Shown here in pieces: positions 2,286 to 16,461 of a stretch of DNA of 45,348 nucleotides. Position 1 is the first letter of the stretch. Each line of letters starts with the position of its first letter. This DNA comes from Christensenellaceae bacterium. Lineage in GTDB: Bacteria > Bacillota > Clostridia > Christensenellales > UBA1242. The stretch lies in the NCBI GenBank assembly GCA_031262595.1, contig JAISHI010000023.1, positions 1-45,348 of the forward strand. Reading direction: 5' to 3'. A program made the position numbers and the translations under genes. The notes under the pieces were generated by a model that was not told the DNA's origin, did not search any database, and worked only from the letters and a program-made list of their open reading frames with translations.

Positions 2286-2486
2286 ATGAATTTAGAAGAA
2301 CAAATTAAAAATACCAAAGAACGGATTGGAATGTTAAGCGACGAAATAGATAAAGAACGCGCGCTTGGTCATGATGTTCGCGAGAGAGAAGCTGACCGTA
2401 GAGACGCTAAAACAAAACTCTACGACTTACAGGAGCAACTTAAAGAACAAAACGCCGCTAACGCACCCGAACCAGAGCGTTTATAA
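2286..2486 (+). CDS. Small predicted coiled-coil protein, paralog of the preceding ORF, C-terminal …NAPEPERL
   Basis: Similar length, promoter and C-terminal tail to 2006-2206. Confidence 0.7.
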   Translation: MNLEEQIKNTKERIGMLSDEIDKERALGHDVREREADRRDAKTKLYDLQEQLKEQNAANAPEPERL

Positions 2487-2496
2487 TCTTTAAAAT

Positions 2497-2702
2497 CCCC
2501 GCGAACCCCACGAAATTATTTGGGGCGCGGAACTGTTGATTAAGTCGGGAAATGGCTTTCGAGGTTATTTTCGAGGACAAAATCGAGGACTTTCGAGGAA
2601 GTTTACCTTAGTAAATGACCGAGAAAACCGAGGTTTTGAACCGAAAAGAACCCGAACGGCATTTAGCGCTTTAGCGCGTCCGAATTATTCAACAGTTCCG
2701 CG
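2497..2702. other. Candidate structured RNA or MITE-like inverted-repeat element
   Basis: 2526-2548 pairs with 2680-2702 (21 of 23 positions). Local hairpin CCGCG-AA-CCCCA/TGGGG-CGCGG at 2499-2530. Internal small hairpins and four TCGAGG repeats. Confidence 0.55.
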
Positions 2703-2708
2703 ATTTTC

Positions 2709-3299
2709 TTAGACGGTTTTTTCGTCTAAATAACTCGACATATTGTCCGCGATATGGAAAAGCAGCGCGATCGGATAAAGTTTAAACGCTTGACCTAACG
2801 CGTTGCCGTAGTCCGCGCGGCTGTCGTATGCGCCCATGTGCCAATTTATCGCCATAGCCTCCTCGCGCGAAAGTTTCATAAACCCGCAAACCATATAAAC
2901 GCTCTTTTCGCCGTGCCCATAAGGAAGTTTGTCGTCGACCGCATAAAACGGAACTTGAACCCAAGCGCCGTCGATTTTTTGGTTGCGCATCTCGGTTTTA
3001 TAGGTATCGACCTTACAAAGGTCATGCAAAAGCGCAATAACCGTCGCGGTTTCGAGGCGTTTTTCGTCTTTAAGATAATCCTCGCCGTATTCCGCAGTCA
3101 AAAGTTTAACGAAACGATGATAAACCTTAACGCAATGCTCGACTAACCCGCCCTCGAAGTTACTATGAAAGCGCGTGCTGGCCGGGCTCGAAAAAAAGTT
3201 GGTTTTCTCGATATATTCTAAAAGTTCCGCCGCCCCCTCGCGTTTAATTTGTTTAAATAAATCCAAATATTCTTTTTTATAATCAATTTCTTTTGTCAT
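2709..3299 (-). CDS. HD-domain protein (predicted metal-dependent phosphohydrolase)
   Basis: HSNFEGGLVEHCVKV and ALLHDLCKVDTY motifs. Confidence 0.7.
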   Translation of the reverse strand: MTKEIDYKKEYLDLFKQIKREGAAELLEYIEKTNFFSSPASTRFHSNFEGGLVEHCVKVYHRFVKLLTAEYGEDYLKDEKRLETATVIALLHDLCKVDTYKTEMRNQKIDGAWVQVPFYAVDDKLPYGHGEKSVYMVCGFMKLSREEAMAINWHMGAYDSRADYGNALGQAFKLYPIALLFHIADNMSSYLDEKTV

Positions 3300-3399
3300 G
3301 AGTTATTATAGCATATAGATAGAAAAACGCAATCGGTTGGTGGCGGGTTTTATTGCTCTTTCATTGGACAACAACATATTTTTCGTGTTAAATTTTGTC

Positions 3400-4239
3400 A
3401 TGAAAAACAAAAGCATTAAAGTTAATGGCATCGACGTTAATTATAAGGAAACAAAAGGCAATGACGAATTTATCTCGTTAACCGATATGGCAAAGTTTAA
3501 AAATCCAAACGAAACTTCGCTTGTAATCTCGCATTGGCTAAGCACAAGATATACTGTCGAATATCTCGGCATTTGGGAAAAAGTCAATAACCCAAATTTT
3601 AACACTACCGAATTCAGTAGTATTAAAAATGAGGCAGGCTCTCATGGTTATGTCCTAACAACAAAGAATTGGGTCGAGAAAACGAACGCCATTGGGATAT
3701 ATTCTAATGCTGGACGCTATGGCGGAACTTATGCACATCGCGATATTGCGTTTGAGTTTGCGACTTGGTTGTCGCCCGAGTTTAAGTTTTGGATAGTTAA
3801 AGAATTTCAACGGCTAAAAGCGGAAGAGCAAAAACAACTTGCTTGGAGCGCGAAAAGGGAACTTGCCCGAATAAATTATCATATACAAACGGACGCGATA
3901 AAAGAAAACTTAATCTTACCTAAATTAACTCCCTGGCAAAAATCGTTTGTTTATGCGGACGAGGCGGATTTGTTGAATGTTGTTATGTTCGGCAAAACCG
4001 CTGGCGAATGGCGAAAACAAAATCCTGATAAAGACGGAAATATCCGCGATTACGCGGACTTACACGAGTTATTGGTTTTAGCGAATTTAGAAACGCATAA
4101 CGCAAGTTATATCGATGAGAAAATGCCGCAAGCGGAGCGATTAGAAAAATTGCGTGGAATCGCGGAACGCGAGTTAGCGGTTTTGCGCAGACACGATATG
4201 AACGCGCCGTTGTTGTTGGATACCGATAATAATAAATAA
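3400..4239 (+). CDS. KilA-N domain-containing protein
   Basis: ISLTDMAK, ISHWLSTRYTVEYLGIWE and GGTYAHRDIAFEFATWLSPEFKFWIVKEFQRLK, typical of KilA-N. Confidence 0.85.
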   Translation: MKNKSIKVNGIDVNYKETKGNDEFISLTDMAKFKNPNETSLVISHWLSTRYTVEYLGIWEKVNNPNFNTTEFSSIKNEAGSHGYVLTTKNWVEKTNAIGIYSNAGRYGGTYAHRDIAFEFATWLSPEFKFWIVKEFQRLKAEEQKQLAWSAKRELARINYHIQTDAIKENLILPKLTPWQKSFVYADEADLLNVVMFGKTAGEWRKQNPDKDGNIRDYADLHELLVLANLETHNASYIDEKMPQAERLEKLRGIAERELAVLRRHDMNAPLLLDTDNNK

Positions 4240-4298: not shown

Positions 4299-4484
4299 AT
4301 GGGACGTATTACGCAATTCTTAGTAGCACACGCTAAAAGAAGCGTCGAAGAAGCGCGCGAAAGAGTCAAAGAAATGCGCGCTCAGGGAATGAGTGATAAG
4401 GAAATCTTAGGAAAAATTAGAGCGAAGCATACGAACGAACAGCCCAAACCGACAGAAACAAAAGACCCCGAACCAATAAGATAA
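4299..4484 (+). CDS. Small charged protein, C-terminal …KDPEPIR
   Basis: Good Shine-Dalgarno (AAGGAGAAAAATG); 61 aa; terminator downstream. Confidence 0.65.
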   Translation: MGRITQFLVAHAKRSVEEARERVKEMRAQGMSDKEILGKIRAKHTNEQPKPTETKDPEPIR

Positions 4485-14829: not shown

Positions 14830-16461
14830 ATGGGATTTTCAGACAAGTTTTGGTGTTGCGTTGGGCCGCGCGGCGCTACTGGAGCGACTGGCGCAACTGG
14901 TCCAGCCGGAACGGGTTGTAGCGGCGGTTGCCCGACAGGGTCAACAGGCGCAACGGGCGCAACGGGCGCAACGGGCGCAACAGGTATTGGGACAACGGGG
15001 GCTACAGGCGCAACTGGGGCAACTGGGATAGGAACAACTGGTGCGACTGGGCCGACTGGGCCGACTGGCGCGCTGGGTTCGACTGGCGAACAAGGCGTTC
15101 AAGGAATTCAAGGCGTTCAAGGTTTAGTCGGCGCAATGGGTTTTACGGGCGATGTTGGCCCGACGGGGCCGACAGGCGAAACTGGCGTTACTGGGCCGAT
15201 GGGTCCGACCGGCCCGCAAGGCATTCAAGGCGTTGCCGGTCCGATGAGCACCTTACTCGGCGCATATGACAGCCTCGAAGATTTAGAGGACGCTCACCCA
15301 ACGGGAACGGCGGGCGACGCATATTACGTGAGCCCTGACCTATATATTTGGGACCCCGACGTGGGCGCTTGGTATAACGTCGGGCGTTTGGCTGGGCCGC
15401 AAGGCGTTCAGGGCGTTCAAGGCATTCAAGGCGAGATGGGCGACGTCGGACCGACTGGTCCTGCGGGCGCAACGGGCTCGACAGGCGCGACGGGTCCGCA
15501 AGGGATTCAGGGTCCGACTGGTTCACAAGGCATTCAAGGGCTTCAAGGTCTTCAAGGATCAACGGGAGCTACTGGCGCAACCGGAGCGCAAGGAATACAA
15601 GGCATACAAGGACTTCAAGGCGCGATTGGAGCAACTGGCGCGGTTGGCGCAACGGGAGCTACTGGCGAGCAAGGAATTCAAGGTATTCAAGGGGTTCAAG
15701 GCGAAAAAGGCGCAACTGGTCCGACGGGTCCGACTGGCGCAACGGGTTTAATCGGGGCGACTGGGGCGACGGGAGCGACTGGCGCACAAGGAATCCAAGG
15801 CATTACGGGAGCAACGGGCGCGACGGGCGCAACTGGTTCAATCGGCGCGACGGGCGCAACGGGAGCAGTTGGTGCAACAGGCGCAACCGGCGCAACGGGC
15901 GCACAAGGTATTCAAGGCATTACGGGTGCAACCGGCGCAACGGGTCCGCAAGGGATACAAGGACTTCAAGGCGTTCAAGGTCCAACTGGCGCACAAGGAA
16001 TCCAAGGCGTTCAAGGGGTTCAAGGCGTTAAAGGCGCAACGGGTGCAACGGGTGCTACTGGCGCGCAAGGCGTTCAAGGTATTCAAGGCCCGACTGGCGC
16101 AGTTGGCGCGACGGGCGCGCAAGGGCTTCAAGGCGTTGCGGGTGCGACGGGGGCGACGGGCGCAACGGGAGCGACGGGTGCGACTGGCCCGCTCTTTACA
16201 CCTGTCGTGGTGTCGAGCCAAGTCGCGCTTTCTGCAGGCAAAGGCGGCGGCATTACCGCTAACTGCCCTTCCGGTTATTACGCGATTGGCGGCGGCGCGG
16301 AGAGTATGACGAAATTGCCGAACGGGCTGACTATTCTTGCAAGCAACCCCGCATACTCTGGGACAAACCCGCCGACGGGCTGGTATGCGAACGCAACAAA
16401 CAACACAACGACCGACGGCCTAGTCCTAACCTCCTACGCGGTCTGCATGCCGAAGGCGTAA
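14830..16461 (+). CDS. Collagen-like Gly-X-Y repeat protein
   Basis: Long GXY tract ([19 protein letters not shown]), one non-collagen insert ([15 protein letters not shown]…YNVGRLA) and a C-terminal globular domain ([14 protein letters not shown]…[13 protein letters not shown]). Confidence 0.93.
14936..15010. repeat. Short tandem DNA repeats in the collagen-like gene (gcaacgggc units)
   Basis: Consecutive 9-bp units encoding G-A-T. Confidence 0.8.

Follow-up and report, generated by a model that had tools for sequence, protein, structure and literature searches.

Prokaryotic MITEs, among them Correia, ERIC, QMITE, RUP and others, are shorter than 500 bp, have inverted ends, occur in many copies without a transposase, lie mostly between genes and are predicted to form a stable hairpin when transcribed (PMC10969869). 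The Rickettsia palindromic elements (RPE) are palindromic hairpins of about 150 bp that lie inside genes, including in frame (PMC10969869). The element described here resembles MITEs in each of the respects listed. It lies in a window of 45,348 nt, the whole stretch of DNA analysed, from a Christensenellaceae bacterium whose genome (G000; 811 kb, 29 contigs, 83% complete) contains 19 copies of 108-173 bp. We consider it probable that the window copy is a MITE belonging to an order-wide family, mobilised in trans, with a plus strand selected as RNA. Throughout, plus denotes the orientation with the better RNA fold.

Inverted arms at 2526-2548 and 2680-2702, described in an earlier note on this DNA, are real: a repeat search of the window returned them as 23-nt arms that are 91% complementary and separated by 131 nt. 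The four TCGAGG repeats and the small inner hairpins that the note listed also lie where it placed them. Close copies can be aligned over their whole length, from GGAACTGTTGATTAAGTCGG to CCGAATTATTCAACAGTTCC, which delimits the unit as 2529-2699 (171 bp, with inverted ends of 20 bp), and comparison with other copies assigns the outermost CGC/GCG of the arms to the flank rather than to the repeat. The features of the locus are as follows.

2286-2486, plus strand: upstream small ORF of 66 aa, its 3' end 42 nt from the element
2499-2530, plus strand: neighbouring hairpin CCGCGAACCCCA...TGGGGCGCGG, a feature of the flank
2529-2699, plus strand: repeat element of the close subfamily, a long hairpin of 171 bp; six more genomic copies share these ends
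2529-2548, plus strand: left inverted end GGAACTGTTGATTAAGTCGG, one of the inverted-repeat pair, common to close copies
2555-2661, plus strand: structurally conserved core (R2 match E 3.6e-22), with covariation and with sequence-only matches elsewhere
2574-2575, plus strand: bulged A2574, then G2575 pairing with C2641; here the core varies least (alignment A4)
2603-2616, plus strand: terminal hairpin TTTACCTTAGTAAA; at columns 79/84 of alignment A1 the pair is CG in five and GC in two, so pairing is kept
2666-2677, plus strand: side hairpin GCGC-TTTA-GCGC in the 3' arm, in the A1 consensus fold (columns 139-142/149-152); close subfamily only
2680-2699, plus strand: right inverted end CCGAATTATTCAACAGTTCC, one of the inverted-repeat pair, common to close copies
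2709-3299, minus strand: convergent gene with an HD domain (PF01966, E 1.3e-5), its stop codon 9 nt beyond the element

The 226-nt stretch 2487-2712 folds at -87.4 kcal/mol on the plus strand against -55.95 +/- 4.07 for shuffles (z -7.7), and the minus strand also folds better than shuffles (z -5.0). There is no gene inside the element, the longest frame through the window copy being 58 aa. A coding role for the 57-codon open frame was rejected because stops interrupt it in several close copies: L003, L005 and L006 have stops within the element in that frame, which is open through element and flanks only in the window and mnmG copies among the seven close copies.

When the element is removed, the joined flanks form a GC-rich stem followed by ATTTTC (-21 to -24 kcal/mol), and the element thus seems to have inserted next to, or within, a stem resembling a terminator. 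The hairpin at 2499-2530 probably represents that terminator stem, which would predate the insertion. The alternative CGCGG pairing follows from that landing and is not a family feature; the "competing fold" is incidental. Several other features of the neighbourhood may be recorded. Tandem small ORFs at 1991-2206 (71 aa) and 2286-2486 (66 aa) have similar endings, NEPEPSRF and NAPEPERL; a 72-nt region upstream of each (1948-2019 and 2228-2299) is 83% identical, and a TTAAAAT/TAGAAT box stands a few bases before an ATG, in what looks like an arrangement for leaderless transcription. A third small ORF (4299-4484) ends in KDPEPIR. Housekeeping genes surround a phage-type gene at 3337-4239, which encodes a protein with a KilA-N domain (PF04383, E 2.7e-19), and a long array of collagen-like repeats of the Gly-X-Y type (GGCGCAACG... 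units), with a period of 9 nt, occupies approximately 14860-16190.

BLASTN of 2487-2712 against G000 brought the number of close copies to seven: of the six new ones, five are full and 88-92% identical and the sixth is truncated, at 86%. R1, a covariance model built from these seven, recovered additional copies that are very diverged, and a second model (R2), built from 18 aligned cores of 107-112 nt, found the 19 copies and then a sharp gap to the next match at E 0.1. Seven of the 19, the window's included, make up the close subfamily; the other 12 have different arms that still pair, their sequences unrelated yet complementary, and the core 2555-2661 is common to the diverged own-genome copies and other families of the order. 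Most other copies adjoin gene 3' ends and many begin at or within the stop codon: rpoC and rbfA run into the element and take their stop codon from it, several copies fill gaps between convergent genes, rsmD/secA and rpoD/cmk being examples, and further copies follow rplL and efp. QMITE2 of Coxiella is likewise found mostly in 3' untranslated regions (PMC10969869). Orientation relative to neighbouring genes is mixed, both with and against, and a fixed transcript function at each site is therefore unlikely.

The clearest intragenic insertion is in rnpB. The copy at C14:352-512 lies within this gene between the 3' strand of P2 and AACAGAACCCGGCUUA, and the surrounding sequence is intact, matching the Rfam class A RNase P RNA over its entire length (E 9.5e-74). 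The distance from CR I to CR V is 460 nt here vs 259-276 nt, with a short linker, in relatives with readable motifs; the insertion occupies a junction able to accommodate an additional helix and offers a natural experiment on the tolerance of RNase P RNA to insertion. Immediately beyond the rnpB 3' end begins another copy, different from the first (L056:21-546, C14:547-704). The divergent genes mnmE and mnmG are separated by a 171-bp copy at C12:335-505, through which the mnmG frame stays open. No ATG, GTG or TTG occurs between this element and the conserved DVVVIGAGHAG motif of mnmG, and an ATG stands upstream of the copy, behind a TATAAT-like box, which makes an in-frame insertion of 57 codons at the mnmG start probable.

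Evidence of transposition comes from relatives. In G308, 17 complete copies of 176-180 bp have ends GAGGCTGCGGAATAATT, and 15 of them are bordered on both sides by identical 3-mers, which vary (AAA, AAT, GTA, GAA, TAT, TTT, TTA). In G554, where the ends are GGGAACCTCTATTTAG, identical 5-mers flank 11 of 14 genuine copies, a count that leaves out two further end pairs due to chance, and in G267 the duplication also looks like 5 bp. Sharp ends with target duplications in two relatives mark these repeats as non-autonomous DNA transposons (MITEs), and the MITE reading put forward in the earlier note is supported by them and by the many genomic copies. Target duplications are a feature of young MITE copies (PMC10969869). 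The own genome retains weak traces, CGA/CGA for one copy, partial duplications for three and CGC/GCG for the window's, as would be expected if its copies are older; these traces fall short of proof for the own genome. The mechanism of DDE transposases ties the length of the target duplication to the transposase, and duplications of 3 bp and of 5 bp would on that reasoning point to different transposases. No autonomous element with these ends was seen in the own genome, G308 or G554, all of them incomplete drafts. Longer end pairs in G554 were considered as autonomous partners and rejected: those of 293-551 bp are the element plus extra non-coding inserts, and those of 687 and 1271 bp are unrelated chance pairs. 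Some G554 elements (L222, L225, L226, L236) are enlarged by non-coding DNA of CCTCACCTTATGACGCTTTTGC-type sequence, an insert of about 77 bp or longer.

How widely is the element distributed? By blastn, a check that the earlier note had also proposed for relatives, 58 of them gave no real counterpart, the single match being a 19-nt chance one, and a search of 196 other family members with R1 found no match. When 396 genomes of the order were searched with R2, 16 of them matched, belonging to 12 genera in 8 families; many of these genomes have numerous copies, the copy numbers per genome being lower bounds among the matches listed. Fifteen genomes beyond the own one match the core model, and 12 of the 15 have sequence-only support. 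Over 391 genomes of the class R2 matched the own genome alone and none outside the order, a search that doubles as a specificity control. A profile that ignores base pairing matches the same places and strands, down to E 5e-13, and its reversed-sequence control gave nothing below E 0.16; the loci had been selected by R2, so this agreement is a check of kind rather than an independent discovery. The matches in G339, G548 and G474 (sequence-only E 0.02-0.05, weak) are doubtful. The exact end pattern matched once in 84,980 named species, in an Anaerolineae MAG and at about chance expectation; the core pattern was absent from viral contigs, and blastn gave no match in plasmids and phages. In G236:C78 (L125, L139) identical 3.1-kb inverted stretches surround a copy, with tandem repeats of about 90-150 bp, and either an assembly artefact or a real inverted duplication is possible. 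Close-paired copies, a few hundred bases apart or slightly more, occur in several genomes (G257:C6:9179-9446 (L180), L157, L165, L169, L145).

The evidence for RNA constraint lies mainly in the core. In a sequence-only alignment of 18 cores from own-genome copies, 20 of 34 pairs show compensatory changes, a result reached in 0 of 500 shuffles, and covariation is 0.365 vs 0.122 +/- 0.014 shuffled and at most 0.089 with partners slid. Over 86 copies from 16 genomes it is 0.652 vs 0.164 shuffled, in an alignment that was fitted to the model and thus leans toward it. Among G458 copies aligned by sequence only, both sides changed in 6 of 58 pairs. At the bulged A of the motif UUUUYG-A-G...C-CRAAAA, none of the 86 copies that have a letter departs from A, and the adjoining G-C pair (G2575-C2641) is kept in 84 (alignment A4). 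Full-length copies fold better in the plus orientation, as set by the core, in 79 of 83 cases. Among single mismatches in Watson-Crick-only folds, read on the plus strand, G.U outnumbers A.C by 101 to 25, much alike whichever strand is folded; in the outer arms, outside the R2 model, the counts are 42 and 16, with 8 genomes above parity and 0 below. Since copies in the same genome are related to one another, the events counted are not independent. Such an excess in one orientation suggests that the plus strand is selected to fold as RNA, which we regard as likely, not proven. The asymmetry is not given by DNA hairpins alone and would be by one-strand RNA selection, and the DNA cruciform was set aside as the selected form for that reason; strand-biased mutation could also be its source. 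Rfam gave no match in the window at gathering score, and an E-value scan of seven loci returned RNase P only, plus one chance-level match away from the elements. The earlier suggestion of a structured RNA thus gains from compensatory change and G.U asymmetry and finds no counterpart among Rfam families.

Could the element be an ordinary palindromic MITE without an RNA role, in which processes at the DNA level (quasi-palindrome template switching, cruciforms, the needs of a transposase) maintain the complementarity of the arms and the core is similar by descent only? Palindromes are common among MITEs, and stable folds are predicted for their transcripts (PMC10969869), the insertions and duplications require nothing further, and template switching between arms can restore pairing without selection. 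We nevertheless think this account rather unlikely, given the G.U excess whichever strand is folded, its consistency across genomes in the outer arms, and a core kept despite changed ends and duplication length; the bulged A and flanking mismatches, which homogenising would erase, are kept, and template switching leaves such asymmetric bulges unexplained. Far less probable is a cis-acting RNA or bidirectional terminator at gene ends, of benefit to the host and repeated by duplication. The copies that start at or in stop codons or fill convergent gaps would suit it, but it is contradicted by the mixed orientation, by the copies in rnpB and at the mnmG start, by absence from all 196 other family members searched and by the transposition that target duplications in relatives show.

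The earlier note had also proposed a locus-specific, riboswitch-like RNA with two mutually exclusive stems. Its local hairpin is present, with CCGCG at 2499-2503 and then CCCCA and TGGGG-CGCGG within 2506-2530, and the two stems contend for CGCGG only, as 2526-2530 can pair with 2499-2503 or with 2698-2702; in the best fold both stems largely coexist. The first stem is flank, outside the repeat, and was found beside no other copy, the locus lies between two convergent gene 3' ends and leads no downstream gene, and Rfam offers no match. A switch is not supported, is already largely refuted and has in our judgement next to no chance of being correct.

The reading we favour, a mobile MITE with an RNA-selected strand, would work as follows. 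On this reading the element is a non-autonomous DNA transposon of about 110-220 bp, forming one long imperfect palindrome, with no protein of its own and presumably moved in trans by a transposase. The family extends across one bacterial order and, to judge from the 3-bp and 5-bp duplications, has been carried by at least two transposition systems. Its arms diverge between lineages with pairing kept, around a core with the bulged A and neighbouring non-Watson-Crick positions. Own-genome copies have settled mostly by gene 3' ends, once in rnpB and once, putatively, in frame with the start of mnmG. Because it folds by itself, the hairpin would cause little disturbance at such sites, probably the reason that the insertions persist. 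Our best guess is that the RNA fold is recognised by a host RNase or RNA-binding protein, which would limit damage at landing sites or serve the upkeep of the element itself. We advance only tentatively the further idea that MITEs with different transposases have a structured RNA in common as their conserved centre and move it with them, the hairpin rather than the ends being selected across the order, for example by recruiting an RNA-binding protein. If so, the recruited host or transposon protein would promote mobility or shield the host from polar effects.

Among known systems, REP/BIME also place palindromic repeats at gene 3' ends. REPs are shorter than this element, and the RAYT (Y1) transposase PF01797 is absent from the own genome (83% complete), with control genomes positive. 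The sequence GGAACTGTTG bears what we take to be a faint likeness to the end of IS26 (IS6/IS26 type); unlike in that type, no 8-bp duplication is seen, and the resemblance is probably chance. Like RPE, the element is a palindromic hairpin of similar size found inside genes, but it offers one probable in-frame case (mnmG) and no conserved peptide, where RPE show many in-frame insertions in protein genes with such a peptide; it works partly like RPE and, judged by these descriptions, is not filed with them. It is short and multicopy, has terminal inverted repeats, target duplication in relatives and no internal transposase, and agrees with the working MITE definition of PMC10969869 apart from an identified parent. 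Unlike described MITEs, it has a structure-conserved, covarying core with one-strand G.U bias across different ends and duplication lengths, and no report of a MITE with such an order-wide core was found in the literature searched. The usual view of MITE hairpins is that they are a by-product of inverted ends, whereas here fold and invariant bulge outlast changes of ends and of target-duplication length, together with a strand asymmetry for which RNA selection would account, and the role of bacterial MITE RNA thereby becomes directly testable. What is new is a covarying, one-strand, RNA-like core common to MITEs with different ends across an order.
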